Source: a virus
IMG/VR virus record: IMGVR_UViG_3300028284_000003
Span: 43,643-107,642 of that record
Length of the DNA: 64,000 bases
Strand: one strand, 5' to 3'
Positions 1 through 16,929 of the stretch are shown in pieces. The notes below the pieces were generated by a model. The model was not told the origin of the DNA. It saw only the letters and a list, made by a program, of their open reading frames with translations, and ran no database searches. Each line of letters opens with the position of its first letter. The stretch's first letter is position 1. The position numbers and the translations under genes were made by a program.

Positions 1-259
1 CAACGGCCTTATCTGCTGCAAAATGAATAATACCTTCTGGATTTTCAGAATTTATTACTTTTCTTATTTCTCCTTTATTTTCTATAGTTAAGCGGTATGA
101 TTTTACCTTTTGATTTACTATATCTTCTATTCTAGAAATAACTGATCCTTCAGAATTTCTAAAATCGTCTATTATTATAGGCTCATGACCTGCTTTAATT
201 AACTGAACTACAGTATGTGAACCTATATAACCAGCTCCTCCTGTGACTAATACTTTCAT
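1..259 (-). CDS. galE: UDP-glucose 4-epimerase-like protein, N-terminal part (C-terminus runs off the window)
   Basis: An open frame starts at the ATG complementing 257-259 and runs off the left edge, giving 86 residues. It begins MKVLVTGGAGYIGSH, the GxxGxxG Rossmann NAD-binding start of short-chain epimerases, and reaches IHFAADKAV, matching the VIHFA-x-x-KAV segment of GalE. The family interconverts UDP-glucose and UDP-galactose in the cytoplasm. In a phage it could feed surface sugar or virion/DNA glycosylation; another sugar-nucleotide epimerase of the family is equally possible because the catalytic YxxxK lies outside the window. A tRNA gene sits directly upstream. Confidence 0.85.
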   Translation of the reverse strand, partial: MKVLVTGGAGYIGSHTVVQLIKAGHEPIIIDDFRNSEGSVISRIEDIVNQKVKSYRLTIENKGEIRKVINSENPEGIIHFAADKAV

Positions 260-272
260 AATTTAAAAATAG

Positions 273-346
273 TGGAGGATATCGGAGTCGAACCGATGAC
301 CTCCTGCGTGCAAGGCAGGCGCTCTAGCCAGCTGAGCTAATCCCCC
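273..346 (-). tRNA. tRNA-Ala (anticodon UGC)
   Basis: Read on the minus strand this 74-nt stretch folds into a full cloverleaf: acceptor GGGGGAT pairing with ATCCTCC, D stem GCTC/GAGC, anticodon stem CCTGC/GCAGG around loop CTTGCAC (anticodon TGC), T stem ATCGG/CCGAT with TTCGACT loop, discriminator A. The third acceptor pair is G3:U70, the main identity element of alanyl-tRNA synthetase. CCA is not encoded. An AlaRS-like protein is encoded at 12587-13438. Confidence 0.97.
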
Positions 347-352
347 ATCTTT

Positions 353-637
353 TTACTTCTCCTTAGAAGCAGTATTTAACATATCAGAAATAGATTTAAT
401 TAAACTATTTGCTAATAACTCTATAGCTTTCTTTTCACTATCGGCTTGATAAATTCTATAAAATCCATAAGAATTTACTATTTGACTTAAATCTAGTCCT
501 CTTTCTTGATCTTTAGTTTTAATAGCTAGTACTTCTTTTTTATCATCATTTATTGCTAAATAAACTTTAATGTCTTTTCCTAACTTCTTGTCTACCTTTT
601 CAATTAGTATATCTAATATGTGTTTCTGTTCTTTCAT
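353..637 (-). CDS. hypothetical protein, 94 aa
   Basis: I do not recognise this small charged protein. It has a lysine-rich N-terminal helix (MKEQKHILDILIEKVDKKLG), a possible short beta segment (KVYLAINDDKKEVLAIKTK) and a C-terminal helix. Its stop lies six bases from the 5' end of the tRNA gene. A GATATATA late-type box lies 31 bases upstream of the ATG. Confidence 0.7.
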   Translation of the reverse strand: MKEQKHILDILIEKVDKKLGKDIKVYLAINDDKKEVLAIKTKDQERGLDLSQIVNSYGFYRIYQADSEKKAIELLANSLIKSISDMLNTASKEK

Positions 638-667
638 GTTAATTATATATTATATTTTAGATTTGTT

Positions 668-675
668 TATATATC
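668..675 (-). promoter_or_regulatory. candidate late promoter box GATATATA
   Basis: GATATATA on the minus strand, 31 bases upstream of the gene at 353-637. It is one of a set of identical boxes placed similarly before other genes in the window. Confidence 0.45.
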
Positions 676-683
676 TTTTTATT

Positions 684-932
684 TTAATATTCCTCTCCAT
701 AAAGACCATTCTTAATATCCTTTTCTTCTTGAGTTTCAAACTGATCCATTTCCCACATACAGTGACCATGTAGGTCTTCTAGCTTTTGATCAGTTAGTAG
801 ATCTATTTTTTCCTTATCAATATCTTCTCCAACGTGCTCATAATAGTCGTAAATTTCTACAAGCATCAATGCTCTTTTATTTAAGTCTGCTAATAATTGG
901 CTTGTCTTTCTATCGTTTGTTTGATTATTCAT
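684..932 (-). CDS. hypothetical protein, 82 aa
   Basis: Unrecognised acidic, probably helical protein beginning MNNQTNDRKTSQLLADLNKR. It contains HGHCMWEMDQF in the middle, with His and Cys residues but no clear metal site. It lies immediately downstream of the sigma factor gene with a 24-base gap and is probably co-transcribed with it from the early promoter at 1593-1631. Confidence 0.7.
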   Translation of the reverse strand: MNNQTNDRKTSQLLADLNKRALMLVEIYDYYEHVGEDIDKEKIDLLTDQKLEDLHGHCMWEMDQFETQEEKDIKNGLYGEEY

Positions 933-956
933 TTTATTTTTTTTTAAGATTTAAGA

Positions 957-1565
957 TTATGATATTTTTTCTGCGATTAATGTTTTACCTCTACGGATTC
1001 TGTTTTTAACAGTTTGTAAATTGACTTTATGTTTTGCTGAAATGTCTTCGTATCTCATACCTTTTAAAAGTCTATCTTCCATAATTTCTTTATACATTGG
1101 TTTAAGATCTACAATTGCTTTAAGTGCACTTTCGTATTTTTGCATAAGCTCTTCGTCTTCTTCAATGTAGTCATTTTCAGTTTTTTGTTCGTATTCCATT
1201 AAGAGTCCATTTGCAGAACCATTAATAATACCATCATCTCCTACTTGTACGCCGAATTCTCTTAGCTGATCAAGAGATGATTTTTTGTTTCTTTCTTTAA
1301 TATAACCTAAAGCTTCATTGAATGCGATCTTGTATAACCATGTTGTAATTTGCCATTCTGGCTTATATTGATCTATTTTAGTCCACAGTTTAATTAGCAC
1401 ATTTGAAGTTAAGTCGCTTGCGATACTGTTGTCTTTTACTATTTTGTAGATATAAGTTTTAAGACCTGGTTTTACTCTGTTGTAAATTGCATTGTAGTCT
1501 TTTTCTGATCTAGTTGCTACGAAGTTTTCTGCTAATTCTCTGTATGTTATTTTTGTTTTTGGCAT
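957..1565 (-). CDS. ECF-like sigma-70 family RNA polymerase sigma factor
   Basis: This 202-residue protein has the two-domain layout of group 4 (ECF) sigma factors. Region 2 is at about residues 20-95 (YIYKIVKDNSIASDLTSNVL through WQITTWLYKIAFNEALGYIK). Region 4 is at about 140-200, ending in a helix-turn-helix (YEDISAKHKVNLQTVKNRIR). ECF factors direct core RNA polymerase to specific promoters. An acidic linker of about 45 residues separates the domains. The gene has its own copy of the repeated early promoter and is followed by a small gene. A separate gp55-type late sigma is encoded at 39279-39662, so this one may serve another promoter class. The sigma family is clear; the promoters it serves are unknown. 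Confidence 0.88.
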   Translation of the reverse strand: MPKTKITYRELAENFVATRSEKDYNAIYNRVKPGLKTYIYKIVKDNSIASDLTSNVLIKLWTKIDQYKPEWQITTWLYKIAFNEALGYIKERNKKSSLDQLREFGVQVGDDGIINGSANGLLMEYEQKTENDYIEEDEELMQKYESALKAIVDLKPMYKEIMEDRLLKGMRYEDISAKHKVNLQTVKNRIRRGKTLIAEKIS

Positions 1566-1592
1566 ATTTATTGTTTTTTTACGTTTTTAATT

Positions 1593-1631
1593 TATAATAC
1601 TAATATAACTATAATTTTTGACCCGTGAAAA
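1593..1631 (-). promoter_or_regulatory. repeated early promoter element, copy 1
   Basis: On the minus strand: TTTTCACGGGTC, 12 bases, then TATATTAGTATTATA. TATATTAG matches the Bacteroidetes -7 consensus TAnnTTTG at all but one base, and TTTTC lies 19 bases upstream where the -33 box is expected. A further conserved block (TTGTTCATAACTTTT) lies upstream. It drives the ECF sigma gene. Confidence 0.75.
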
Positions 1632-1666
1632 TTTTAAGGCACTTTTTTTCAAAAGTTATGAACAAT

Positions 1667-1858
1667 TTAAGATTCTCTATCCCATTGTTCATTATCGGCT
1701 GTGATTTGACACAATGTTAAGAACTCATCTTTAAGTTCTGCTAAAGACCATTCGGAATACTTAATTCCTCTAGGTCTAATCCCATGTGCGTCTTTATAAG
1801 CGTCGCTCATTACCTGTAAAAATTCTTTTTTAGTCCAAGTGTCGATTATGTCTGTCAT
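1667..1858 (-). CDS. conserved small phage protein, 63 aa
   Basis: Begins MTDIIDTWTKKEFLQVMSDA. The pattern KEFLQVMSDAYKDAHGIRPRG resembles small proteins of unknown function that I recall from many large phages. It has its own early promoter (1873-1911), and its stop lies beside the upstream block of promoter copy 1, so promoter, ORF and element form a compact cassette. No function can be assigned. Confidence 0.75.
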   Translation of the reverse strand: MTDIIDTWTKKEFLQVMSDAYKDAHGIRPRGIKYSEWSLAELKDEFLTLCQITADNEQWDRES

Positions 1859-1872
1859 GTTTAAGTTTTAAT

Positions 1873-1911
1873 TATAATACTAATATAACTATAAACTTTG
1901 ACCCGTGAAAA
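1873..1911 (-). promoter_or_regulatory. repeated early promoter element, copy 2
   Basis: Same layout as the other copies: TTTTCACGGGTC, 12 bases, TATATTAGTATTATA on the minus strand, ending 15 bases before the ATG at 1858. The flanking TTGTTAATAACTTTT block is present. Confidence 0.75.
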
Positions 1912-1947
1912 CTTTTAGGCACTTTTTTTCCTAAAAGTTATTAACAA

Positions 1948-2064
1948 TTATTTCTTAAAAATTTTTATTAAATCAAGGACGGTATTGCCCACGATAGAAA
2001 TTAAAAGCACCATTCCGAGAAAGTGCCATATTGATTGAAATGTAAATTCGAAAAATGTCATCAT
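1948..2064 (-). CDS. small membrane protein, 38 aa
   Basis: A 39-codon frame begins MMTFFEFTFQSIWHFLGMV and ends IKIFKK. One predicted membrane helix spans about residues 12-30. Its ATG overlaps the TGA of the upstream gene in an ATGA arrangement, indicating translational coupling. Two lysines at the C-terminus suggest a cytoplasmic tail. No known family was recognised. Confidence 0.6.
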   Translation of the reverse strand: MMTFFEFTFQSIWHFLGMVLLISIVGNTVLDLIKIFKK

Positions 2065-2585
2065 GTTATTTCTTTTAATAAGTCCATAAGTGAATTAATA
2101 TCTTGTGGCTTAAAGTTACATTGATCAGTGCTACAATTTATCATTCTCTTTTTTGGTACTGTTTTGTATTTACGAGTTGGATAGCCTATAACTCCATAAT
2201 ACTTTTTAGATTTTTTAGGCCATTCCTGCATAGGCCAATAATTTAAACATATTTTTAAAGTATCAATTGAAAAATATGGATCTATTATTTTTACATTTTT
2301 AGGTAAATTACCCTTGTTGTAAAGATCTAATATTGGCTGATCATTTTCTCCAATTATCATAAAGATTTTTTTACCTTTTAATAATAGTAATGAATCATAT
2401 GCTGTTTTAGGATCCCATGCAAAATTACCAAGGTGATATACAACGTCTTCATTAGTTACAACATCGTTCCAATTTTTAATTAAATCAGAAGTCATTGAAT
2501 CTACGCTAATATAAGGGCGTCTCCATTTTCCAATGGCCGATTGACGCCCTAATTGCATATTACCTGTTATAAATGTTTTACCCAT
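2061..2585 (-). CDS. metallophosphoesterase-fold protein with the metal ligands replaced (likely pseudoenzyme)
   Basis: Length (174 aa) and motif order follow the small phage/bacterial calcineurin-like phosphoesterases: start FITGNMQLG where the family has (S/T)D-x-H-FGH, then VYHLGNFA for VYxLGDFA, IIGEND for xxGNHD, LNYWPMQEW for xxHYPxxxW, and NCSTDQCNFKP for NVGVDxxxYxP. At each metal-binding position the usual Asp or His is changed (D to N, H to Q, D to N, NH to EN, H to Y, HGHSH to non-His). The scaffold residues around them remain, so the fold is probably kept and hydrolysis lost. It may bind a ligand or act as a decoy. The upstream gene encodes a PD-(D/E)xK-like protein and abuts it. 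Confidence 0.75.
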   Translation of the reverse strand: MGKTFITGNMQLGRQSAIGKWRRPYISVDSMTSDLIKNWNDVVTNEDVVYHLGNFAWDPKTAYDSLLLLKGKKIFMIIGENDQPILDLYNKGNLPKNVKIIDPYFSIDTLKICLNYWPMQEWPKKSKKYYGVIGYPTRKYKTVPKKRMINCSTDQCNFKPQDINSLMDLLKEIT

Positions 2586-3121
2586 TAGGCTACTGTAAAT
2601 TTAATGTTGTATCTATTCCAAAGATCTGTCATTAACTTAACTTCTCTTGTGCCTGTTTGAGCATTCTTAATTTTTTGGTCTTTTGATGTATCAATAAAAA
2701 GATACATTACAAAGTCATAGCTTGTTGAATAAACAAGGCTTTGGCCGATTCCACTTCTTAAACTATTTCCACTCTCCCCTCTTCTAAACTCAATCGCTAT
2801 ATTCATACCGTTCATTTCTAGTACCATATCTGGTCTATTTAATGTTCCCATAAATAAAGTATGGTGTACAGTAGTGTTAACATCACCTTCCCATTTTAAG
2901 TTTTTCTTTACCTTTACCTTTGCCTTCTCAGCAGTAGTGTCAGTATTTTCAACTAAATATTGAGTTAGTGATTGTACAAGGTGAGGATAAACAAATTGTT
3001 TGATTTGATCTTCAGTCTTGTTTTTATAATCAATTGTATTAAATATGTCGTCTTGTGTAATAGCCTCAGAAATTAATTCCATGAAGTCTAATCTCTTTTG
3101 ACTCTTAGCCTTTTGTCTCAT
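2585..3121 (-). CDS. PD-(D/E)xK nuclease-like protein
   Basis: A 178-residue protein with a helical N-terminus. Residues 97-113 read as the restriction-endonuclease core: PD98 on a strand, then IAIE111-F-R113 on the next (E-x-R in place of E-x-K). GQSLVYS follows, resembling the Gln-containing helix often seen after the core. It may cleave nucleic acid or be a non-catalytic relative, since the Lys is replaced by Arg. It overlaps the upstream coiled-coil gene by 17 bases and abuts the phosphoesterase-like gene, so all three are probably co-expressed. Confidence 0.5.
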   Translation of the reverse strand: MRQKAKSQKRLDFMELISEAITQDDIFNTIDYKNKTEDQIKQFVYPHLVQSLTQYLVENTDTTAEKAKVKVKKNLKWEGDVNTTVHHTLFMGTLNRPDMVLEMNGMNIAIEFRRGESGNSLRSGIGQSLVYSTSYDFVMYLFIDTSKDQKIKNAQTGTREVKLMTDLWNRYNIKFTVA

Positions 3122-3641
3122 CTGCAGTTTCTAGAGTAGGTTCAACTTCTTCCGTATTCTCCATTGCAGTAATGTTAGTGTCAAGATCTCTTAATCTAAC
3201 ATGTATGTCTGAAATTTCTTTATTAGACTCAGTAAGTTCATTCATTGCATTAGTCACTGACTCACCTACCATTGTAAGCATTTTTACAAATTTTCTTGCG
3301 TTTTCAACGCCAGTTCCTTGTACATTTAAGAGTGCTTGATAGAGGCCATTTAACTCATAAGCCTTAAGTTCTAATGTTACTTTATAATCATCTCCTGCTG
3401 TTTCAAGTTCTTTTTTAATTCTACTTCTTTCTGCTTTTAACCTATCAAATAAAGTTACAACAATTGCTGCATTCTTAGTTTCCCAAGTATATCCTTTATT
3501 TAAATGGTCTTGTATTGTTTTAATCATTGATACGTCTTCGACTTCTACGTTAAAAATCATAGCCGCGTTTGCTTTTGCAAGTTCAGTAACTTTACCTTCA
3601 AGTTCTGTTCTTTCTGTTTTTAAATCTTCTAAATTTGTCAT
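3105..3641 (-). CDS. hypothetical coiled-coil protein, 178 aa
   Basis: Begins MTNLEDLKTERTELEGKVTE. Heptad-like leucine and acidic/basic patterns suggest coiled coils at about residues 1-30, 65-105 and 130-160, with an acidic C-terminus. No domain recognised. A GATATATA box (extended to TATAAATAG) lies 27 bases upstream, which suggests late or structural expression. Confidence 0.65.
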   Translation of the reverse strand: MTNLEDLKTERTELEGKVTELAKANAAMIFNVEVEDVSMIKTIQDHLNKGYTWETKNAAIVVTLFDRLKAERSRIKKELETAGDDYKVTLELKAYELNGLYQALLNVQGTGVENARKFVKMLTMVGESVTNAMNELTESNKEISDIHVRLRDLDTNITAMENTEEVEPTLETADETKG

Positions 3642-3667
3642 TGTTTGTTTGTTTTAAAATTACTATT

Positions 3668-3675
3668 TATATATC
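3668..3675 (-). promoter_or_regulatory. candidate late promoter box GATATATA
   Basis: GATATATAAATAG on the minus strand. It also contains the exact T4 late -10 box TATAAATA, and lies about 27 bases before the ATG at 3641. Confidence 0.55.
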
Positions 3676-4149
3676 CTAAAATTCTGGATTGGTCACTCGT
3701 AGATCATAGTCTTCGAATTCGTTAAATTGCTTCATATCCTCTATCTCTCTTGACATTGGATGGTAAGCTTTGTCATCTCTTAAGATTAATCTAGTTAACC
3801 TCGTGGTAGGGTTAATGTCTAAGTAAATTATTAAACATTCCTTTTTAATTTCTTCTGGTAACAACTTAAGGCCATCTGGTGACATGATTAATACATCACT
3901 TTTTTGATATTCCTCTCTTGTCATTCCATATTTCCAACCTTTAAAATCCATATACTCAAGCATATCGCCTGCTTCTACGATTTTCATAAAAGACTCGTCG
4001 TCAGTATAGTAATAATCTACACCTTCTGTTTCTGTTTCTCTTGGAGATCTTGTTGTGTGGCTTACAGCTCCTTTAAAACCTTTCTCTGCAAGTCTTGCTC
4101 TAAAATAATCCTTACCTGCTGCAGCCTTGCCTACTAATATAATTTTCAT
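3676..4149 (-). CDS. gmk: guanylate kinase
   Basis: A 157-residue protein with a P-loop at residues 7-14 (GKAAAGKD) and the GMP-binding segment SHTTRSPRETETEGVDYYY. It then carries the usual gap, D-M-L-E-Y, and a C-terminal arginine-rich lid (RLTRLILRDD). The enzyme phosphorylates GMP/dGMP to the diphosphate for dGTP supply. It is shorter than bacterial Gmk (about 205 aa), mainly at the C-terminus. Translation is coupled to the small upstream gene through ATGA. Confidence 0.9.
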   Translation of the reverse strand: MKIILVGKAAAGKDYFRARLAEKGFKGAVSHTTRSPRETETEGVDYYYTDDESFMKIVEAGDMLEYMDFKGWKYGMTREEYQKSDVLIMSPDGLKLLPEEIKKECLIIYLDINPTTRLTRLILRDDKAYHPMSREIEDMKQFNEFEDYDLRVTNPEF

Positions 4150-4325
4150 ATAGTGTTTAAGTTATCGATGTTTGACTTATCTAAATTGTCTAATCTTAAT
4201 TGTCTAAGCTTTGCTCTTAGGCTTTGTATTTCCTTTAAGTGGGAAGTATTAGTCTCGCCTGCTAATAGGCTTTCCATTTCCTTTAAGATTTCAATTTCTA
4301 TTCTGTTGTATTCAGCTTCTTCCAT
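4146..4325 (-). CDS. small coiled-coil protein, 59 aa
   Basis: A 60-codon frame beginning MEEAEYNRIEIEILKEMESL, highly charged and helical, with LKEIQSLRAKLRQLRL as a probable coiled coil. Its TGA overlaps the ATG of the guanylate kinase gene. No known family recognised. Confidence 0.55.
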   Translation of the reverse strand: MEEAEYNRIEIEILKEMESLLAGETNTSHLKEIQSLRAKLRQLRLDNLDKSNIDNLNTI

Positions 4326-4346
4326 GTTTATTATATACTAAAAAAA

Positions 4347-5093
4347 TTAATTGTTTAACTCTGACAGTGATTTATATTTAAAATTTCTTACAACATATTC
4401 TGAAGTAGGGTGATTGTTTACATCTACGCCTGCATCGACATGTGCATTTATTTTTACATTCATTGATTTACCACGATATTCCTTTAATAGTTCTGGATCT
4501 TTAAGCTCTCTGACTAGTCTATCATTATAAAATATTTTAATCACATCCGGTGTCCATAAACAGCCAAATTTATTAAAATGTTTTGCTGGATTTTTCCAAC
4601 CTAACCAATGCGTCTTTGGTCCTAAATGATAATTATCAGGTTGTTTGCCACAATGGAAATTAGTTTCTACTCTCCAAAAGCCAAATGGATTAAAAAGATC
4701 AAAGTGAAAAAAGTGTTCTTTGTTTTTTGAATAAGCTTCAAAGACATCAATTTCAGGTGGCCAACTTTCAAATGGACTCATCCAAAATGCAGGCCACAAG
4801 TTTTTACCCGTTGGCAACTTAGCCTCTATTTCAAAATATCCATAGCCAAAGCCATCGACACTTGATACTAAACCTACTCCTATTGGAATTTCAAGTTCTG
4901 TTAGTTCAGAATTGTAATGAAGCGCATTGCCTTTAAATGTTTTTGGATTCATTTGAGTCTTTAAAATCATTTCATCCTTTTCATTTATTTCTATTGCGCT
5001 TCTATCATAATAGCAATATGCTTTGTCAGGGTGATATGTTCCCCATTTTTCTCTTGGACGCCATTTATATCCGCCCCATTGTATATGTGCCAT
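4347..5093 (-). CDS. glycoside hydrolase family 16 (laminarinase / beta-glucanase type)
   Basis: A 248-residue protein with the GH16 signature E114-I-D116-V-F-E119, preceded by LWPAFWM, the typical strand before it. In the family the first Glu is the nucleophile and the second the acid/base in retaining hydrolysis of beta-1,3 or beta-1,3/1,4 glucans, agarose or carrageenan. All three catalytic residues are present. There is no signal peptide, so it may act in the cell, be released at lysis or be carried on the virion. GH16 laminarinases are typical of polysaccharide-degrading marine Bacteroidetes. Neighbours are SET and thioesterase genes. The exact substrate cannot be read from the sequence. 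Confidence 0.88.
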   Translation of the reverse strand: MAHIQWGGYKWRPREKWGTYHPDKAYCYYDRSAIEINEKDEMILKTQMNPKTFKGNALHYNSELTELEIPIGVGLVSSVDGFGYGYFEIEAKLPTGKNLWPAFWMSPFESWPPEIDVFEAYSKNKEHFFHFDLFNPFGFWRVETNFHCGKQPDNYHLGPKTHWLGWKNPAKHFNKFGCLWTPDVIKIFYNDRLVRELKDPELLKEYRGKSMNVKINAHVDAGVDVNNHPTSEYVVRNFKYKSLSELNN

Positions 5094-5104
5094 TTTATTT
5101 AAAT

Positions 5105-5434
5105 TTATTTAGTTGGATCATATAAGAAGTATTTTAATGTAAGTTCTTCCCCTGCTTTAATATCTTTAATTGTCCATAGATATAAATCCTTAGAATTTGT
5201 GTCATAGACTTGTCCTTCGAAAACTGTATCTGTTTCAGTATTTGGTGTTTTACTGTAATTTATAAAACCACCCAAAGGAAGTCTAATATAACCATCTTGG
5301 AAATTTTCGTTAAATACATGAGACAAGCCTAAACATGTGCCTTTTAAAATGTCTTCTGTTGCAAAAAGTCCAATGCCTTCTATATTTGATTTCTTTATAG
5401 TTAAGTTATCGGGTAAGGGTCTATAATATTTCAC
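5105..5434 (-). CDS. SET-domain protein (putative protein-lysine methyltransferase)
   Basis: At 109 residues this is a minimal SET domain like the viral vSET proteins. It has EGIGLFATEDILKGT at residues 19-33, the N59YSKTPN65 motif (family N-H-S-x-x-P-N) and the C-terminal I-x-A-GEELTLKY with tyrosine 102. These form the SAM and lysine channel in SET enzymes. No pre-SET or zinc-binding post-SET region is present. Possible targets are host or phage lysine-rich proteins such as ribosomal proteins or polymerase; none is indicated. The gene starts two bases after the stop of the thioesterase gene. Confidence 0.82.
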   Translation of the reverse strand: MKYYRPLPDNLTIKKSNIEGIGLFATEDILKGTCLGLSHVFNENFQDGYIRLPLGGFINYSKTPNTETDTVFEGQVYDTNSKDLYLWTIKDIKAGEELTLKYFLYDPTK

Positions 5435-5435
5435 T

Positions 5436-5819
5436 TTACTTAAATTTATCTTTTACTCTTTCTGAAATTGGAATTGCATCTCCCATTTCATCAATTCTTA
5501 CAAACTTTATATTTGTTTGTAAAATAATATTTTGTTTGCCATTATAAACATTGTGGCTTCTGGCTTCTAAATATAAATCTATAGAAGTTGTTCCTATAGA
5601 ATCAACCTTTGCGTACATTTTTAGTAGCTGACCTTCCTTTGCCGGCTTTGTAAAAACACATTTATTTATGCATTTTGTAACCATTCTTGGAGTATCGCAC
5701 ATTTCTGCTGCATAGCTTGCTGCAGCCGCATCTAACCAAGCCAAGAGTTTCCCTCCAAACAAGTTTCCATGAAAGCCTAAATCTGATTTTTTTATTGGGT
5801 GTGTACTAACTAACTGCAT
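5436..5819 (-). CDS. hotdog-fold acyl-CoA thioesterase
   Basis: The 127 residues match YciA-type single hotdog thioesterases. NLFGGKLLAWLDAAAASYA forms the central helix with the expected GG-x-x-L-x-x-x-D pattern, followed by strands VTKCINKCVFTKPAKEGQ and NIKFVRIDEMGDAIPI. Members hydrolyse acyl-CoA in the cytoplasm. In phages this is an uncommon metabolic gene that may alter host lipid or acyl-CoA pools. It overlaps the upstream 60-aa gene by 14 bases. Confidence 0.85.
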   Translation of the reverse strand: MQLVSTHPIKKSDLGFHGNLFGGKLLAWLDAAAASYAAEMCDTPRMVTKCINKCVFTKPAKEGQLLKMYAKVDSIGTTSIDLYLEARSHNVYNGKQNIILQTNIKFVRIDEMGDAIPISERVKDKFK

Positions 5820-5988
5820 TTACTATTTTTTGGCAACGTTCATATTCTTCTTCATTTTCGTAATGTTTTAATATTACATCTCTATCTGTATGGTCAACTG
5901 GTAACCAAAACTCTTCGCCTAAATCATCATAGTTTATTTCACCCATGTATAATCTATAAGCATTATCATATGATTGATCTATATTCAT
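5806..5988 (-). CDS. hypothetical protein, 60 aa
   Basis: Acidic small protein beginning MNIDQSYDNAYRLYMGEINY. It overlaps the following thioesterase gene by 14 bases and the preceding gene by four (ATGA), so it sits inside a tightly coupled operon. No family recognised. Confidence 0.65.
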   Translation of the reverse strand: MNIDQSYDNAYRLYMGEINYDDLGEEFWLPVDHTDRDVILKHYENEEEYERCQKIVNAVS

Positions 5989-6218
5989 TTTTCTTGTTCG
6001 TCTACGTCTATTATTTCTGGTTTATCTAAGCACTCATTAACTGCAGCATCTGACATATCTAAAACTTCTCTTAAATAATCTGCCACTTTTCTACAAGTTT
6101 CTTCTTGTGCATTCTTAATCATTGTCTCAAGCTGACCTTCTCTATAACTGTCTCTATAGAATTCTGAGTCTTCAAGCCAATTTATAAAAAGTCTAAGTCT
6201 ATTTTCTAAATTTTTCAT
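5985..6218 (-). CDS. hypothetical protein, 77 aa
   Basis: Helical acidic protein beginning MKNLENRLRLFINWLEDSEF. It is coupled by four-base overlaps to both neighbours. No recognisable domain. Confidence 0.65.
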   Translation of the reverse strand: MKNLENRLRLFINWLEDSEFYRDSYREGQLETMIKNAQEETCRKVADYLREVLDMSDAAVNECLDKPEIIDVDEQEK

Positions 6219-6730
6219 CCTCTTATTTCTTTAAGTTCTTTTTGTACTTTATTCCAATAATGTTGGGTCTTGATTTTCTTAGGGCCTCGAGGACCTCCAT
6301 TCCAACACCTTGCAATTACCTCATCACTGTCTTCTATGTGATGAAAGTCTCTCCAAACAATAAACATTTCAATAGATTTTTGTCTACTAAAACGATCTTT
6401 TCTTTTATAACGTAGTTTAGAACCTTGGATTTTTAAGATTCTATTTACTTCTCTCACCATAATTGGACGTATTTGTAAGACACCAACTGATGGTTCTCCT
6501 AAATGTTTATCTCCTAATAGATTTGACTTACCTCTACTTTCAACATTAATTAATGCATATATTAAAGTAGAATCTATTACCTTTACGGTATCATTAATTA
6601 CGTTAATTATTGTTTCGTTTTCTAAACAATCTTCTACATTTTCAGTATCGCCGGTGATAGAACCTGCCCAAAATGCAAATGGAACTAATAATGAACTAAT
6701 TCTTGGTATTGACATTGTTTCTAAAATCAT
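6215..6730 (-). CDS. lytic transglycosylase-like (SLT-fold) protein with N-terminal membrane segment
   Basis: A 171-residue protein with a hydrophobic stretch at about residues 9-26 (PRISSLLVPFAFWAGSITG), then an SLT-like core: LIYALINVE64SRGKSN with the catalytic-type Glu, SVGVLQIRPIMVREVNRI, and VIARCWNGGPRGPKK resembling the A-x-Y-N-x-G segment. Such enzymes cleave peptidoglycan glycan strands. The N-terminus may act as a signal-anchor export sequence. It is followed downstream by small coupled genes and preceded by a membrane/coiled-coil protein, consistent with a lysis or entry role. Confidence 0.7.
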   Translation of the reverse strand: MILETMSIPRISSLLVPFAFWAGSITGDTENVEDCLENETIINVINDTVKVIDSTLIYALINVESRGKSNLLGDKHLGEPSVGVLQIRPIMVREVNRILKIQGSKLRYKRKDRFSRQKSIEMFIVWRDFHHIEDSDEVIARCWNGGPRGPKKIKTQHYWNKVQKELKEIRG

Positions 6731-6897
6731 TCTAATCTTTTTAGTTTACTGTGATATTTTAATAATAACTTTCTTGAAAATTGATCTACTGTTCCTTCTT
6801 CTATTACTTCTTTAACAATTAATTGGTGCAATTCATGAATTCTTGATTCAACGTAACTTCTATGTCTCATTTGTCTTCTTCTAAAAGAGAATTTCAT
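6727..6897 (-). CDS. small basic protein, 56 aa
   Basis: A 57-codon frame beginning MKFSFRRRQMRHRSYVESRI. It is strongly basic at the N-terminus and helical after it. Both ends overlap neighbours by a few bases: the ATGA with the membrane protein upstream, and its TGA with the ATG of the transglycosylase-like gene. No known family. Confidence 0.6.
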   Translation of the reverse strand: MKFSFRRRQMRHRSYVESRIHELHQLIVKEVIEEGTVDQFSRKLLLKYHSKLKRLE

Positions 6898-7145
6898 ATA
6901 TCTTTAGGATTTAACCAATCGTTTGCACAACATGAATTTAATATTTGAATTTCTTCATCGAGTTCATTAATATAATCTAATAATTTAGAGTTGTCAATTT
7001 GTAAGTCTAAATGTTGATCTACTAATAAAGCTTCTTTTTCTTTATAGTTTTTTTCTGAATTTTTTATATTTTTTCTTAAAATTATAATACACGATAAAAG
7101 AATTAAAATTATAAAAAATTGTACTAGTTTTAGTGCTTTTTTCAT
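6894..7145 (-). CDS. small membrane-anchored coiled-coil protein (spanin-like candidate)
   Basis: 83 residues: a single transmembrane segment at about residues 9-24 (VQFFIILILLSCIIIL), followed by a charged helical region (KNIKNSEKNYKEKEALLV onward) and a Cys-containing tail (NSCCANDWLNP). The N-in, periplasmic coiled-coil layout is that of i-spanins, and a transglycosylase-like gene is two genes downstream. No outer-membrane partner is evident, so this role is only a suggestion. Confidence 0.5.
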   Translation of the reverse strand: MKKALKLVQFFIILILLSCIIILRKNIKNSEKNYKEKEALLVDQHLDLQIDNSKLLDYINELDEEIQILNSCCANDWLNPKDI

Positions 7146-7155
7146 TTTGTTTTCT

Positions 7156-8448
7156 TTAAAAATCTCTGGCTTCTTCGTAGACTGCTTTAATTACTGGGAA
7201 CCTTAGTGAATGTTCTCCTTCTTGATTTGTAGTTTCTTCGAAGTATTGCACGGTTATGGTTTTGTTTAATATTTTATTAGGATTTTCAAAAAAGTTTCTT
7301 TTTTGTTCAAGACTAAAGCCACTACCAACTTGTACCCTATTGCCTTTGTGTTCTATAACTACATTTTTAAGCATCATTTCATCAACTTCTTTACCATCTA
7401 CAATTACCCTGTTGATAGCATTTTCAAGATCAACTACTGTATATTCTGCATCGAACATTTTTTTAACCTTTAAAATGTCTTGGCTTCTCTTACCTTTATA
7501 AACATCATCTTTTCTTAGCATCAAACCTTCCCAACCTTCTTTGGCTGCGATTGCCATTTGTTCATTTACCATGTCTTCACCTGTCGTTAAATACTGTTGT
7601 AAATATTTAATATACTTTAGATTTGGATCTCCTAGAATCATCTCAAGCGTCTGCAGCCTAAGACATAGTGGCTCTTTTGAAACTTTATTAGTAAAATCTT
7701 CTAGTGTAATTAAATCAAATGCTTGAAATAATGGCTTTTCAATCGTGTGATCTTTTCTTTTAATTTCTTTAATAATAGATTGAAAATCCTCGTTTCCATT
7801 CTTGTCTACCATACATATCTCGCCATCAATTACAACATGTCTAAGGTCTAGACTCTCTAATTCATGTCTAACATTTTCTAGTGTAAGAAACGATTTGCCA
7901 CTTCTTGAGTAGAGACTTACTTCTCCCCATTCATTAAAAAATGCAAGGCATCTAACTCCATCGAGCTTCCTACTAAGATACCAATCATCTTCTGTAAAAT
8001 TTACTTTCTTTTTAATTTTATCATCATAGGCTGATGCTAATGCAACGTCAAATGTAGGCACGCATCCTGGGATTACCTTATTAATCATTGAAGCAGTAGA
8101 TCTTGTTTTAAGATTCCTGTCTATGATATTATAAATAAGATCTGCATGTTCTTCGTTGTTACTAATAAACCCATTAACTTCTGCAAGTGCAGCATGGCCT
8201 GTAATTTCTCTATTATCTAACCTATCTAAGAGATTAAACAAATTATTGCCAGCATGAGAGTTCATTAGGTCACTTCTCTTCTTTAGATTTTTTGAAGTAA
8301 CATAATATTGTTTAAATGGTGAGTATACATACTTGAGCATTCTAGTGACCTCTAGATCATCCTTAAACTGTTCTAATACTTTTAACTTATCTAAGTTTGA
8401 GTTTGATGAATTACTTTGCTCTACAAAAGCTTTTATTTTTTCTAACAT
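7156..8448 (-). CDS. 30: ATP-dependent DNA ligase (T4 gp30-like)
   Basis: 430 residues, close in size to T4 DNA ligase. The nucleotidyltransferase motif I is K161-L-D-G-V-R, with K161 as the AMP-accepting lysine. Motif III lies in FQAFDLITLE, motif IV in EGLMLR and motif V in ILKVKK. An OB-type C-terminal domain follows (VQVGSGFS through LRFPVIKAVY). An N-terminal helical domain of about 130 residues precedes the core, as in T4. It seals nicks in replication and recombination. An early promoter copy lies 20 bases upstream. Confidence 0.93.
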   Translation of the reverse strand: MLEKIKAFVEQSNSSNSNLDKLKVLEQFKDDLEVTRMLKYVYSPFKQYYVTSKNLKKRSDLMNSHAGNNLFNLLDRLDNREITGHAALAEVNGFISNNEEHADLIYNIIDRNLKTRSTASMINKVIPGCVPTFDVALASAYDDKIKKKVNFTEDDWYLSRKLDGVRCLAFFNEWGEVSLYSRSGKSFLTLENVRHELESLDLRHVVIDGEICMVDKNGNEDFQSIIKEIKRKDHTIEKPLFQAFDLITLEDFTNKVSKEPLCLRLQTLEMILGDPNLKYIKYLQQYLTTGEDMVNEQMAIAAKEGWEGLMLRKDDVYKGKRSQDILKVKKMFDAEYTVVDLENAINRVIVDGKEVDEMMLKNVVIEHKGNRVQVGSGFSLEQKRNFFENPNKILNKTITVQYFEETTNQEGEHSLRFPVIKAVYEEARDF

Positions 8449-8467
8449 ATTTTATCTTTGTTTTAAT

Positions 8468-8506
8468 TATAATACTAATATAACTATAATCTTTGACCCG
8501 TGAAAA
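8468..8506 (-). promoter_or_regulatory. repeated early promoter element, copy 3
   Basis: TTTTCACGGGTC, 12 bases, TATATTAGTATTATA on the minus strand, just before the DNA ligase gene. The upstream part overlaps the end of the small gene at 8511-8633. Confidence 0.75.
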
Positions 8507-8510
8507 CTTT

Positions 8511-8633
8511 TTAACACTTTTTTTCACTTTTTTTCCAGTGCCATGCACCTGAGCCTATATAATAATCTTTTACATATCCCATTGCTTCCATTTCATACTC
8601 AATAGGTGTGCCATTTCTTTTAGAAGCTGTCAT
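8511..8633 (-). CDS. small hypothetical protein, 40 aa
   Basis: A 41-codon frame beginning MTASKRNGTPIEYEMEAMGY and ending GAWHWKKSEKKC. An in-frame TTG eight codons upstream could extend it. The composition is that of a real small protein, with a lysine-rich tail encoded by the A-rich start of promoter copy 3. No family recognised. Confidence 0.5.
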   Translation of the reverse strand: MTASKRNGTPIEYEMEAMGYVKDYYIGSGAWHWKKSEKKC

Positions 8634-8643
8634 TGCATAATAA

Positions 8644-8868
8644 CTATTCAAGTCCACTTTCTTCTTTTATAATTTTTAAAAGTTGATGTAAGTTTATTGC
8701 CATAATTACAAGGTTAGTAATTATAATAGGCATGCTTAAAATAAGTAAACCATAAATTGTAAATAAAAAACAACCTATTGTATTAACAGTTCTTAATCTT
8801 TTTATATTTTGTATAGTAAACGAAAATATAACTAGAGCAGTTGCCACGTATCCTAAAATTTCTATCAT
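8644..8868 (-). CDS. small integral membrane protein, 74 aa
   Basis: Two to three hydrophobic helices: about residues 3-20 (EILGYVATALVIFSFTIQ), 30-48 and 48-62, joined by a short basic loop (NIKRLRTVN). The pattern resembles small YgjV/PQ-loop-like inner membrane proteins, but similarity is too weak to name. It overlaps the zinc-ribbon gene by four bases. Confidence 0.65.
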   Translation of the reverse strand: MIEILGYVATALVIFSFTIQNIKRLRTVNTIGCFLFTIYGLLILSMPIIITNLVIMAINLHQLLKIIKEESGLE

Positions 8869-8999
8869 TTTTCTAATTCTTTTAATCTTGCTGGAATTAC
8901 ATGTGTAAAGTTACAAGTGTCGCAGCATCTTTTATTATTAACAGGCTCTGCGTTATTACCAAAGCCTGTTATTTTATTGTTACATATTGAACATTTCAT
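8865..8999 (-). CDS. small zinc-ribbon protein, 44 aa
   Basis: A 45-codon frame beginning MKCSICNNKITGFGNNAEPV. Two CxxC knuckles (CSIC and CDTC, the second preceded by another Cys) form a probable zinc ribbon like those in many small phage proteins. It may bind nucleic acid or a host protein. The stop overlaps the next start in ATGA. Confidence 0.65.
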   Translation of the reverse strand: MKCSICNNKITGFGNNAEPVNNKRCCDTCNFTHVIPARLKELEK

Positions 9000-9028
9000 A
9001 TAGATTATATGAAAAAATGTAGTTTTGT

Positions 9029-9229
9029 TTATCTACCTAAAATCAATTTCTTAAAAAATGGAATTGAACTATAAATAGCAAGTGCCATAATTGTCCATCC
9101 CCACCATACACTAAATTGACTAGAATTTGGATCCATTATATCTCTATAACCCATTATTATTAAATAACAATTTATAAAACCTATTAAACCTTCGTTTTCA
9201 GTTATTCTTTTTATTATTTGTTGTTTCAT
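9029..9229 (-). CDS. small membrane protein, 66 aa
   Basis: Begins MKQQIIKRITENEGLIGFIN. Two hydrophobic segments lie at about residues 14-27 and 42-58 (WWGWTIMALAIYSSIPFF), and the C-terminus is basic. No family recognised. Confidence 0.6.
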   Translation of the reverse strand: MKQQIIKRITENEGLIGFINCYLIIMGYRDIMDPNSSQFSVWWGWTIMALAIYSSIPFFKKLILGR

Positions 9230-9313
9230 GTTTTTTTATTTTTATAATTAAACGTAACTTGATTTTATTAAATTGTATTTAATTGTTGATTATATTAAAA
9301 AAGTTAACCTTGT

Positions 9314-9739
9314 TTATTTTATAGGTAAACGTGTTGTAATTTCTTTAAGTAACTTATCTAGTGTTTGAGAACTCCACATGCCTGTTTTTTTCCAAGTATT
9401 TGTTAGTGCACTTTTTGTATTTTCAAATATTTCAATTCCAAGATCATGGTCGTAAATGCAAATTTCGTTAGTATTTCTATCAGTGTATGCAATATATAAG
9501 TTTTTACCTATGTATTTTTTATCTAATGTGGCCCTAGATCCTTTTAACTGGATTTGAATATTTTCACCATTAAGAAAATTATAGGCTATCATATCAGCAC
9601 CGTGTTTATCTGCGGTAATTAAATTACATACATATCCATATTCTACAAGCGTTGATGCTGTTTTTGCATAATTATATACTTCTTGTTCTTTTCCTATTAA
9701 ATTTGTGTAATTTACTTTTTCTTTAAATAAATGTTTCAT
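9314..9739 (-). CDS. PD-(D/E)xK-type nuclease-like protein, 141 aa
   Basis: HGAD49MIAYN followed by IQIQ64-L-K66 fits the D-x(n)-(E/Q)-x-K core of the restriction-endonuclease fold, as in Holliday-junction or homing-type relatives, with Gln replacing Glu. Helices flank the core. It may act in recombination or degradation of host DNA. The gene lies in the early accessory region; no partner is evident. Confidence 0.5.
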   Translation of the reverse strand: MKHLFKEKVNYTNLIGKEQEVYNYAKTASTLVEYGYVCNLITADKHGADMIAYNFLNGENIQIQLKGSRATLDKKYIGKNLYIAYTDRNTNEICIYDHDLGIEIFENTKSALTNTWKKTGMWSSQTLDKLLKEITTRLPIK

Positions 9740-9741
9740 TG

Positions 9742-9933
9742 TTAATCGTTTTTAATTTTTATTTTGTGCCATTCTTGAGCAAACCAGCACATCATTTTCT
9801 TTTCCTTTCTAAGCATTCTTTTAGAAAGTTCAATAGCATATTTCAATCCAGCCTCTGTATTATCATGGTACAGCTCAGCTTCGAATTGCTCAATTAAACA
9901 TGCTATTGGTGTTTTTATTTGTTGATGTTTCAT
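9742..9933 (-). CDS. hypothetical protein, 63 aa
   Basis: Helical protein beginning MKHQQIKTPIACLIEQFEAE with a basic Cys- and Trp-containing C-terminal half (RKEKKMMCWFAQEWHKIKIK). It is immediately upstream of the nuclease-like gene and just downstream of a 44-bp direct repeat that may hold its promoter. Confidence 0.6.
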   Translation of the reverse strand: MKHQQIKTPIACLIEQFEAELYHDNTEAGLKYAIELSKRMLRKEKKMMCWFAQEWHKIKIKND

Positions 9934-9936
9934 ATA

Positions 9937-9980
9937 ATTATAATTACATGTTTCTTGGGAAATTTACATAAAAATTAAAA
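9937..9980. repeat. 44-bp direct repeat, copy A
   Basis: Starts ATTATAATTACATGTTTCTT on the plus strand and is identical to 10019-10062 except for one base (GGG versus GGA). It lies just upstream of the 63-aa gene and may be a regulatory or promoter element distinct from the common early promoter. Confidence 0.85.
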
Positions 9981-10018
9981 CTTTTTTAAAACTTATGTTT
10001 TTTGTATTTCCTTATATT

Positions 10019-10062
10019 ATTATAATTACATGTTTCTTGGAAAATTTACATAAAAATTAAAA
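10019..10062. repeat. 44-bp direct repeat, copy B
   Basis: Second copy of the same sequence, 82 bases from the first. It directly adjoins the terminator of the phosphatase gene. Confidence 0.85.
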
Positions 10063-10083
10063 AAGACCCATTAAGGGTCTTTT
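10061..10083 (-). terminator. intrinsic terminator after the HAD phosphatase gene
   Basis: Nine-base-pair stem AAAAGACCC / GGGTCTTTT with a five-base loop, followed by a U-rich run on the minus strand. Confidence 0.85.
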
Positions 10084-10114
10084 ATTTTAAAACAATATAA
10101 TATGAATCTTATTG

Positions 10115-10582
10115 TTAAAAGTCGCCTGGAGCAACTTGCATACATGTTAGGTTGTTGTTTCTCCACATTTTTACAACTTTATCTCTGTCATCAAAGACAC
10201 AAACAATATTGCTTTTATCTGGAAATAAATCATCTAACCAATTTTGTTTAAGTTGATCATCTGGCTTAAACATCCAATCTTTGCCAGTTGGTCTCATCTT
10301 AATCACATGAAAAGGTACTTTATGTTTAACCAACCAACCCTTAGTAGTCAATTGCGTACCTTTACTTCTACCACTAAAGATAGCGATCATATGGCCAGAA
10401 TCTGCAAGAATTTGAGCCATTTTTATCACAGCATGGTTTGGCTGATCTAAACTGATATTCTTTGGGTCAAAAAATATGTCCCAATCTATTTTACCATTTG
10501 GCTTTGTTGCTAATTTTCTTCTTGCATCTATATTCGCTAAGGTTCCATCTAAGTCGAATATTACCCATTTTTGATCTGTCAT
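10115..10582 (-). CDS. HAD-family phosphatase similar to the polynucleotide 3'-phosphatase domain of T4 PseT
   Basis: 155 residues. Motif I is FDLDGTLAN at about residues 9-17 (nucleophile Asp and general acid Asp), motif II is SGR at about residue 80, and motif IV lies in VFDDRDKVVKMWRNN. The last, followed by MQVAPGDF, closely resembles the C-terminal phosphatase of T4 polynucleotide kinase, which removes 3' phosphates from RNA or DNA ends. No kinase domain is attached, so this is a stand-alone phosphatase. It has its own early promoter and terminator. A nucleotidase role is the alternative. Confidence 0.78.
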   Translation of the reverse strand: MTDQKWVIFDLDGTLANIDARRKLATKPNGKIDWDIFFDPKNISLDQPNHAVIKMAQILADSGHMIAIFSGRSKGTQLTTKGWLVKHKVPFHVIKMRPTGKDWMFKPDDQLKQNWLDDLFPDKSNIVCVFDDRDKVVKMWRNNNLTCMQVAPGDF

Positions 10583-10600
10583 TTTTTTACGTTTTAAATT

Positions 10601-10639
10601 TATAATACTAATATAACTATTTTCTTTGACCTGTGAAAA
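10601..10639 (-). promoter_or_regulatory. repeated early promoter element, copy 4
   Basis: Same element with TTTTCACAGGTC (one change from the others), 12 bases, TATATTAGTATTATA on the minus strand, before the HAD phosphatase gene. Confidence 0.72.
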
Positions 10640-10642
10640 TTT

Positions 10643-11014
10643 TTAGGCAACTTTTTTCAACATTTTTTTAGTTGCATAATTTAGAATCTTTTTAAGTCTT
10701 TCTTCTCTTGTAAGAAGCATGATTCTTTCTTTACCTACCCAATTATAAGTATCTCCAGTTTCTTGACTTTTCCAAGATGCTGGATAAGTTTTAGTTGGGT
10801 TTAATTGCCAGCAAGTATCTTGTAGTTTTTTATTATCTGACCTTCTAGTCCAATATCTTATTTTTCTAACATAGCCAGTAGAATATTCTGCTACTGTTTC
10901 TCCAGTCTTTAGTCTCCACATTGAAGTACCATTTTTCTTTTGTGTTTTAGATGAGATATTTTTTGCACCCATTGTTTCTAAAACTTCTTCGTATATTTTT
11001 TCTTTACTTTCCAT
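10643..11014 (-). CDS. hypothetical protein, 123 aa
   Basis: Basic protein starting MESKEKIYEEVLETMGAKNI from the first ATG; an upstream TTG three codons earlier is less likely. Aromatic-rich middle (YVRKIRYWTRRSDNKK, CWQLNPTKTYPASWK) and basic helical end (LTREERLKKILNYATKKMLK). It has its own early promoter, as expected for a host-takeover gene. No family recognised. Confidence 0.7.
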   Translation of the reverse strand: MESKEKIYEEVLETMGAKNISSKTQKKNGTSMWRLKTGETVAEYSTGYVRKIRYWTRRSDNKKLQDTCWQLNPTKTYPASWKSQETGDTYNWVGKERIMLLTREERLKKILNYATKKMLKKVA

Positions 11015-11063
11015 TATTTTCAAGTGTTAATTTGTGATTAATTCATTTTGTTTAAGTTTTAAT

Positions 11064-11100
11064 CATAATACTAATATAACTATAATCTTTGACATAAAAA
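11064..11100 (-). promoter_or_regulatory. repeated early promoter element, copy 5 (variant upstream half)
   Basis: GTC, 12 bases, TATATTAGTATTATG on the minus strand. The TTTTCACGG part is replaced by TTTTTTAT here, although TATATTAG and the spacing to GTC are kept. Confidence 0.7.
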
Positions 11101-11137
11101 AATCTAGAGGCAACTTTTTTCAAAAAGTTATGAACAA

Positions 11138-11263
11138 TTAAACGTTTAAAGTTTCCCAAAAGTCGTTATTTGCTTTTACTTCTGCTTCTTTATCGGTATA
11201 ACCTAAGTCTAGATACTTTTGAAAAAACTTTTCCAAAAGATTATTATTTATTACATTAATCAT
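11138..11263 (-). CDS. small hypothetical protein, 41 aa
   Basis: A 42-codon frame beginning MINVINNNLLEKFFQKYLDL and ending NDFWETLNV. A helical, UBA-like stretch (LGYTDKEAEVKANNDFW) is visible but too short to be diagnostic. It overlaps the upstream membrane protein gene by eight bases. Confidence 0.55.
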   Translation of the reverse strand: MINVINNNLLEKFFQKYLDLGYTDKEAEVKANNDFWETLNV

Positions 11264-11411
11264 CTTTGTGTTTTTTAAACAGTTCTTCCCATTCATCCAT
11301 GGTATAGTTTAACATTCTTCTAATTCTTGTTCTTTCTGTTTCAGAGCCTCGTAGCCAACCCATTAAATAGGTTGCTGCGATTACTCCGATTATTGCAATT
11401 AAATCCGACAT
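11256..11411 (-). CDS. small single-pass membrane protein, 51 aa
   Basis: A 52-codon frame beginning MSDLIAIIGVIAATYLMGWL. One N-terminal membrane helix spans about residues 4-20, followed by a basic then acidic cytoplasmic helix (RTRIRRMLNYTMDEWEELFK). Function unknown. Confidence 0.55.
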   Translation of the reverse strand: MSDLIAIIGVIAATYLMGWLRGSETERTRIRRMLNYTMDEWEELFKKHKDD

Positions 11412-11412
11412 A

Positions 11413-11871
11413 TTATTTGTTTATTTTATATGCGTAACTGGCATGGGTTTTTGTGTTCATGCTTTTCCATAAATCATAGTCAACCATCTTTTTCCAAGCA
11501 TTGTGCATGTGAGTTACTTTTAAGTTGTTTAAGAATGTTTTATCTATTGAGTAAAATTTACCACCTTTAGTAGTTAATACATTAAACCAATGTTCAGAAC
11601 CATCTTTGAATTTTTTTAATACCTGTACATTATCTAAAAAAGTATAAGTTGATGAGATAAATCTTTCAGGAGTAGCCGTTTGGTCACTGATATTTAAAAA
11701 TCCAGCTTTACATTTACAAGTATATCTGAATTTGTATTCAACTCCTTCTTCTAAATGATTTGAAACTGTAAATTTTAAGTATTTACCTTTATTGTCTTTT
11801 TGAGTAACACTGCCAAAAAATACAGTATTGCTTCCTTCTAATTGTTGTTTTGATTTTTTTACTATTTCCAT
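11413..11871 (-). CDS. hypothetical protein, 152 aa
   Basis: Begins MEIVKKSKQQLEGSNTVFFG. Predicted beta-rich centre (GKYLKFTVSNHL, EYKFRYTCKCKAGFL) with a CKC pair, and a basic tail. It is expressed from its own early promoter copy and followed by two small coupled genes. No family recognised. Confidence 0.7.
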   Translation of the reverse strand: MEIVKKSKQQLEGSNTVFFGSVTQKDNKGKYLKFTVSNHLEEGVEYKFRYTCKCKAGFLNISDQTATPERFISSTYTFLDNVQVLKKFKDGSEHWFNVLTTKGGKFYSIDKTFLNNLKVTHMHNAWKKMVDYDLWKSMNTKTHASYAYKINK

Positions 11872-11888
11872 TTGTTTTAAGTTTTAAT

Positions 11889-11927
11889 TATAATACTAAT
11901 ATAACTATAATTTTTGACACGTGAAAA
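11889..11927 (-). promoter_or_regulatory. repeated early promoter element, copy 6
   Basis: TTTTCACGTGTC (one change), 12 bases, TATATTAGTATTATA on the minus strand, with the TTGTTAATAACTTTT flank supplying the stop region of the preceding gene. Confidence 0.74.
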
Positions 11928-11954
11928 CTTTTTAACACTTATTTTTAAAAGTTA

Positions 11955-12428: not shown

Positions 12429-12438
12429 AGTTTATAAT

Positions 12439-12477
12439 TATAAATACTAATATAAACAAAAAAAGCGACCCGTGAAA
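12439..12477 (-). promoter_or_regulatory. repeated early promoter element, copy 7, overlapped by a terminator stem
   Basis: TTTTCACGGGTC, 12 bases, TATATTAGTATTTATA on the minus strand. The CGGGTCGC part forms one arm of the terminator hairpin at 12458-12497. Confidence 0.72.
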
Positions 12478-12497
12478 ATCCAGGGTCGCTTTTTTTT
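12458..12497. terminator. strong bidirectional intrinsic terminator overlapping an early promoter
   Basis: Fourteen-base-pair stem AAAAAAAGCGACCC / GGGTCGCTTTTTTT with an 11-base loop. The stem is GC-rich at its apex with A/T runs at both sides, so it can work on either strand. It ends transcription from the AlaRS-like gene upstream. Confidence 0.9.
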
Positions 12498-12586
12498 AAA
12501 ACTTATTAACAATTTAACCATACCAGTATAATAGATAAAGTGCAATAGATGCTGCTATTAAATATGCAGCCCATGTTAGTGTGTAT

Positions 12587-16921: not shown

Positions 16922-16929
16922 TATATATC
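16922..16929 (-). promoter_or_regulatory. candidate late promoter box GATATATA
   Basis: GATATATA on the minus strand, about 23 bases upstream of the tape measure start. Confidence 0.55.

Follow-up and report, generated by a model that had tools for sequence, protein, structure and literature searches.

A phage-encoded ECF-type sigma factor

The window analyzed here spans 64,000 nucleotides at the end of a 107.6-kb virus record (G000); on its minus strand, at 957-1565, it contains a gene with an ATG start for a 202-aa ECF-type sigma factor. Pfam profiles located sigma region 2, the core-binding and -10 recognition module, in residues 27-93 (1287-1487, minus strand; Sigma70_r2, PF04542, E 1.8e-10, 40.9 bits, cut-off 24) and region 4, the -35 recognition module, in residues 147-195 (981-1127, minus strand; Sigma70_r4_2, PF08281, E 7e-7, 29.2 bits, cut-off 25.7). 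Regions 2 and 4 alone were matched, which fits the ECF form lacking regions 1.1 and 3. Together with matches to PHROG 1740, 'RNA polymerase sigma factor' (2.5e-15), and to E. coli sigma-E, 1or7, as the best PDB relative (7e-7, residues 16-201), these results confirm the initial annotation of the gene as an ECF-type sigma with both regions. The structural model is poor over the full length of the protein (pLDDT 59.7) and good for region 4 alone, which superposes with an rmsd of 1.1 A on region 4 of E. coli sigma-E with -35 DNA (2h27). Alignment places the recognition helix of region 4, QTVKNRIRRGK, at residues 184-194 (984-1016, minus strand). SigW of B. subtilis reads TGAAAC and contacts bases and backbone through T168, K170, T171, R172 and R175 (PMC6713349). 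At these aligned positions the phage helix displays T, K, N, R and R, with T185, K187, R189 and R192 corresponding to SigW residues that contact TGAAAC and N188 replacing T171. A search across 84,980 species recovered only six weak cellular homologues (20-32% identity, four of the six from Bacteroidota), and hence no close cellular donor is evident. The genes flanking the sigma gene, 684-932 and 1667-1858, matched no family of known function in Pfam or PHROG. Just upstream lies a phosphoesterase gene (phrog_547, 2061-2585), and a phosphoesterase that looks the same by eye precedes the ECF gene in a relative (G002) and in the 462-kb phage LR756500; one such gene is at L168:19423-19953.

The record encodes a T4-type core comprising portal, terminase, prohead protease, tail sheath, gp46/47, a DnaB-type helicase, UvsX, DNA polymerase, ribonucleotide reductase and clamp loader. 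It also encodes a 127-aa gp55-like late sigma (39279-39662, minus strand; phrog_234, 'late sigma transcription factor', E 2.1e-10), conserved in relatives, so that the ECF protein is indeed a second sigma, as had been proposed. A gene beside gp46/47 (44910-45353), considered as gp55 on the basis of T4 gene order, was rejected, as it matched no family. The relatives compared include records of 205 kb (G001), about 178 kb (G002 and G003) and 246 kb (G004) and a 100-kb fragment (G005); both sigmas co-occur in G001, G002, G003 and G004, and G004 encodes two different ECFs (L060:11669-12274 and L061:12384-12995) along with its gp55-like protein. Judged by gp55, the closest T4-type phages in culture have mostly Bacteroidota hosts (Tenacibaculum, Chryseobacterium, Prevotella). 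The expectation that T4-type phages normally encode gp55 alone is not supported as worded, given that a second sigma is not unusual in T4-type jumbo phages: according to the part of a survey cited here, group 2 jumbo phages, which like our phage are T4-type, combine a minimal sigma factor with a more complete one (PMC7824862). That portion of the survey calls the fuller sigma RpoD-like and does not describe its promoters, its regulon or the order in which the sigmas act (PMC7824862).

Early-like and late-like promoter elements

An 84-nt repeated element is present in 7 copies, at identities of at least 70%, in positions 1-13000 of the window, and besides the ECF gene it precedes at least eight other genes in the window. 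The copy immediately upstream of the ECF gene (1574-1657, minus strand; distance about 30 nt) contains the -7-like box TATATTAG at 1598-1607. Further boxes of this class, all on the minus strand, are found at 1878-1887 upstream of a 63-aa gene (1667-1858), at 8473-8482 upstream of DNA ligase (7156-8448), at 10606-10615 upstream of a PNK-type phosphatase (10115-10582), at 11069-11078 and 11894-11903 upstream of the genes 10643-11023 and 11413-11871, and at 30035-30044 and 59119-59128 upstream of two 91-aa genes (29740-30015 and 58821-59096). Yet another, at 12445-12454 upstream of the gene 11955-12428, follows a terminator-like hairpin: this copy (12421-12504) shows GCGACCC..GGGTCGC and then T just upstream of TATATTAG, a hairpin form that recurs in other copies in both G000 and G001.

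In relatives whose ECF protein is 51% identical the TATATTAG box is still found upstream of the ECF gene; alignment by eye shows that the flanks have changed, with TTATATTAG and an upstream TTTT tract kept at equal distance. The primary sigma of Bacteroidota recognizes a -7 box of the form TAnnTTTG (PMC7366714), which TATATTAG resembles with one mismatch, and we infer that the repeated elements are early promoters for the host sigma. The long element was also considered as the target of the ECF protein and rejected, since it lacks TGAAAC-N16 and its conserved box is the Bacteroidota -7-like TATATTAG. The initial annotation had the ECF gene expressed from this early element; the element does lie directly upstream, and the time of expression is a prediction from DNA alone.

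A second class is defined by the 8-mer GATATATA, which is among the top enriched words upstream of genes (observed/expected 21/0.7 in G001, 19/0.6 in G002 and 11/0.4 in G000) and occurs about 25-45 nt before start codons. On the minus strand of the window it precedes the prohead protease (box 36199-36206, gene 34280-36178), the tail sheath (21418-21425, gene 19123-21384), a 1016-aa gene (16922-16929, gene 13849-16899) and the genes 41261-42034 (box 42054-42061) and 59993-62113 (box 62142-62149). We infer that GATATATA is the box read by gp55 and corresponds to the late promoter of T4.

A third, bipartite promoter class

TGAAAC first drew attention as an enriched upstream word in the same genomes, and the list of its sites then showed a second box at a fixed distance, revealing a third class, TGAAAC-N16-RTATAAT, with the textbook layout of ECF promoters; spacing, conservation at orthologs and the phage LR756500 were later tests of this motif. 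When the spacer in GAAAC-Nk-RTATAAT was varied from k = 8 to 24, k = 16 yielded 6, 12 and 11 sites in G000, G001 and G002 respectively, against 0-1 at other values of k. Five related records contain 9, 16, 16, 9 and 7 copies of the form GAAAC-N16-RTATAA, against fewer than 1 at other spacings. These sites lie on the coding strand about 40-60 nt before starts and follow the strand of the genes (15/1, 15/1 and 3/16). As the genomes are about 30% G+C and several of the sites overlap terminators, the class could be viewed as chance or as a side effect of terminators and of A+T-rich DNA between genes. The controls already refute this view: the 7-16 sites found stand against means of 0.2-0.7 in dinucleotide shuffles of the same five records (Poisson 6e-8 to 9e-20), reversed-pattern and N13 searches gave 0-2 sites in G001 and G002, the strand tracks that of the genes and most sites are outside terminators. 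The class was also considered as sigma-70 promoters and this was rejected, because TTGACA-Nk-TATAAT shows no peak (0-2 sites) and TTGAAA recovers only the few sites implied by TTGAAAC.

The targets in the window, all on the minus strand, include the gp55-like gene itself, which is preceded by GGAAAC-N16-ATATAA at 39681-39708. TGAAAC-N16-ATATAA at 50397-50424 precedes a gene for a 247-aa protein (49626-50369), which was modelled because it had no family match; the AlphaFold model (pLDDT 82.9) identifies it as a sliding clamp, the counterpart of gp45, all of its best 50 Foldseek matches being sliding clamps with PCNA first (E 9e-11). AGAAAC-N16-ATATAA at 29728-29755 precedes the large subunit of the clamp loader (gp44-like, 319 aa, 28750-29709; phrog_168, E 1.2e-71) and is also present at the ortholog in G002, and in G001 and G002 a site of the class is found before the gene for a gp32-like SSB. 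Further TGAAAC-N16-ATATAA sites are located at 57460-57487, in a terminator-like hairpin upstream of the gene 57174-57443, at 31079-31106 upstream of the gene 30601-31053, and at 18188-18215 upstream of a 332-aa gene (17171-18169), the last also in G001 and G008. A weaker site, TGAAAC-N16-ATAGAA at 19073-19100, is upstream of the gene 18479-19033, which has a late box as well.

The clamp gene carries a third-class site in all six records compared (G000, G001, G002, G005, G006 and G008), and the gp55 gene does so in G000, G001, G005, G006 and G008, while its site in G002 is a TAAAC variant. Among viral contigs the spacing before gp55 is 16, and no other, in all 45 distinct upstream regions; before the clamp TGAAAC-N16 with an A+T -10 box is present in 41 of 41 distinct upstream regions (32 strict and 9 relaxed), again at no other spacing. 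As the 80 gp55 and 80 clamp contigs behind these counts are related, the agreement reflects conservation rather than independent events. Late transcription in T4 requires gp55, gp33 and the clamp gp45 (PMC2988020); thus, with gp55 and clamp genes among its targets, the third class would sit at the entry to the late phase.

At the gp55 site in the window, the loop of a terminator-like hairpin contains the -35 box. In 45 of 45 distinct gp55 upstream regions the GAAAC box falls within the hairpin of an intrinsic terminator and the T tract in the 16-nt spacer. The unit in the window (39675-39715) folds with -14.3 kcal/mol and a z-score of -6.6, and the folded examples of such terminator/promoter hairpins span -11.7 to -17.5 kcal/mol (z -3.4 to -6.6). 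The same layout is seen before 57174-57443 and at several sites in Sphingomonas phage PAU. For gp55 and several further genes, then, the terminator hairpin of the upstream gene encloses the -35 box, so that early read-through would stop exactly where a middle start is offered. Such a unit would probably hold gp55 silent before the middle sigma is present.

A probable reader of the third class and a predicted cascade

The distribution of the class was compared with the recognition helix of the phage sigma. Records with the helix QT[VI]KNRIxRG carry the class, which tracks the helix in six records; the helix reads QT[VI]KNRIRRGK in G002, G006 and G008. In LR756500 it is QTVKNRIARGRK, and therefore the class was expected in this phage before its sites were counted. 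In 300 kb of its genome we found 16 sites at spacing 16, 10 at spacing 17 and 0-4 at other spacings, and 19 sites in the whole 462 kb. There are 0 third-class sites in G004, where both ECFs have other helices without QTVKNRI, and 0 in each of T4, crAss phage cr118_1 and the Chryseobacterium phages MA9V-1 and MA9V-2. Lak-B2 (550 kb) has 1, PTm1 2, pT24 4 and LR756502 4 sites, which in genomes of 225-642 kb is about the rate of the reversed control. A point against the link is the 100-kb fragment G005, which has 3 sites and in which no ECF is encoded. The huge phage LR756500 gave further weak sigma-like matches at 18381-18824 and 75598-75765, both on its minus strand (A1 profile, E 1e-5; PF08281, E 0.005), and may thus encode additional ECF-like proteins.

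The genomes with the ECF gene thus also contain putative target promoters for it, with a -35 box of the GAAC/GAAAC type and a fixed spacer. The exception to this parallel is phage PAU (NC_019521), which has 23 TGAAAC-N16-GTATAA sites, all on one strand (e.g. 25484, 26318, 35783 and 39387), and in which no ECF of our protein's family was found. Its only sigma with a region 4 is gp1, a longer protein with a different helix. This protein carries two annotations, RNA polymerase sigma factor and internal capsid vertex protein, and it may be a packaged sigma; phmmer found no gp1-like sigma in the phages studied here. The presence of the class in PAU without this ECF implies that it can also be recognized by a different sigma or by a factor of the host. 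One could hence propose that the third class comprises real promoters read by a host sigma, either a host ECF or the housekeeping factor, while the phage ECF does something else, and bacterial ECF sigmas with TGAAAC-type -35 boxes do exist (PMC6713349). This appears unlikely, as Bacteroidota T4-type phages without this ECF (MA9V-1, MA9V-2, PTm1 and pT24) are not enriched in the class, nor is G004, whose ECFs have other helices; moreover, the class follows the recognition helix of the phage sigma in six records, and the early elements of the same genomes have a different box, resembling the Bacteroidota -7 (PMC7366714). Reading of the third class by the phage ECF therefore remains the probable assignment, a strong one that PAU keeps from being exclusive.

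It is also conceivable that the ECF acts early and on the host, diverting host polymerase to host genes or blocking the host sigma, and that gp55 or another phage factor reads the third class. ECF sigmas can compete for core polymerase, and phage sigmas acting on host programmes have been described for Bacillota, at least in the part of that account drawn on here (PMC9429907). We consider this very improbable: the gp55-like proteins have no region 4 and would be unable to recognize a -35 box at a fixed spacing, gp55-like genes are also present in G004 and in T4-type controls that lack the class, and the ECF helix matches the -35 box.

In the reading that we favor, with a probability of about 0.72, the phage ECF sigma holds the middle position in a transcription cascade. 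The repeated early elements, one of which would drive the ECF gene, would be read by host RNA polymerase carrying the housekeeping sigma; the ECF sigma would then bring host core polymerase to TGAAAC-N16-RTATAAT promoters and so switch on the genes for the sliding clamp and its loader, for the gp32-like SSB and for the gp55-like late sigma, a regulon that would comprise most of the known T4 late-transcription apparatus along with replication; finally gp55 and the loaded clamp would read the GATATATA late promoters of the structural genes. The sequences establish the sigma, the three promoter-like classes with their positions, and the identities of the clamp, clamp loader, SSB and gp55-like protein; the pairing of sigmas with classes and their timing are predictions. 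The core idea, an ECF sigma that creates a middle class after the early promoters read by the host sigma and before the late ones read by gp55, is well supported. The open-access literature searched contained no account of a gp55 phage in which an ECF sigma serves as the middle step, or of the promoters of such a sigma. The two-sigma cascade with a middle switch suggested by the initial annotation gains support from the conservation of the third class at orthologs, its position before gp55 and its largely parallel distribution with the helix, with its timing still a matter of prediction.

Phage-encoded ECF sigmas as such are already known. T4 activates its middle genes through MotA and AsiA, which act on the host sigma-70. 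A profile search for AsiA (PF09010) in 7 records of the group came up empty, which is weak evidence as no control was matched either, and the one for MotA (PF09114) gave only sub-threshold matches of 12-14 bits against 26.1; the one in the window's record lies inside the ribonucleotide reductase NrdA and was rejected. The initial annotation had noted that neither protein is seen, with which these searches agree; its further claim that the sigma replaces them goes beyond what absence from a profile search, in records that may be incomplete, can carry. Nevertheless, we regard it as somewhat favored that, in a large marine group of Bacteroidota T4-type phages, a phage-owned ECF sigma has replaced a MotA/AsiA-style middle switch, with a regulon of replication and late transcription that includes the late sigma, and with promoters partly placed in upstream terminators, where a 40-bp unit would end early and start middle transcription. 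This suggests that the middle class of T4-type phages can run on an ECF sigma where the primary sigma of the host is of the unusual Bacteroidota kind. It also turns an annotation into a testable circuit, with a named sigma, a box of exact spacing and a target list that includes the next sigma; the promoter model can be used to annotate hundreds of uncultured marine phage contigs, and the sigma and its box are a candidate orthogonal pair.

T4 shares with our phage a gp55-type late sigma, a sliding clamp, a clamp loader and a short A+T late box (PMC2988020), whereas our phage is predicted to use a separate ECF sigma for its middle genes, and for gp55 and the clamp as well. Salmonella phage 7-11 gp47 is likewise a phage sigma with a counterpart of region 4, and it guides host core polymerase to two-box phage promoters; its promoter, GTAATG-16-ACTA, has boxes 16 nt apart as in our phage but of different sequence, and its near homologues include sigma-24 of the bacterium Winogradskyella (PMC8948821). 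However, 7-11 is phiEco32-like rather than T4-type, has no middle class and no gp55, and uses gp47 at late promoters (PMC8948821). Within the portion of the same source that concerns phiEco32, gp36 resembles our protein in being a phage sigma for middle and late genes after early transcription by the host sigma, but it reads single-box promoters, has no region 4 homology and works with the host-sigma inhibitor gp79 (PMC8948821). Among cellular sigmas, SigW and E. coli sigma-E similarly consist of regions 2 and 4 only, and SigW has a TGAAAC -35 and matching contact residues in the recognition helix; in contrast to our protein, both are stress sigmas held by anti-sigma factors, and the -10 box in our phage is RTATAAT (PMC6713349).

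The window also encodes several proteins outside this circuit. A 248-aa protein (4347-5093) resembles by eye a family-16 glycoside hydrolase, with a PEIDVFE motif, and would be unusual cargo for a T4-type phage, and a 109-aa protein (5105-5434) resembles by eye a SET-domain methyltransferase. A tRNA-Ala(TGC) gene is located at 272-346, and a 283-aa protein (12587-13438) matches the N-terminal part of alanyl-tRNA synthetase alone (PF01411, E 1e-22), the match covering positions 2-153 of the 552 in the profile.
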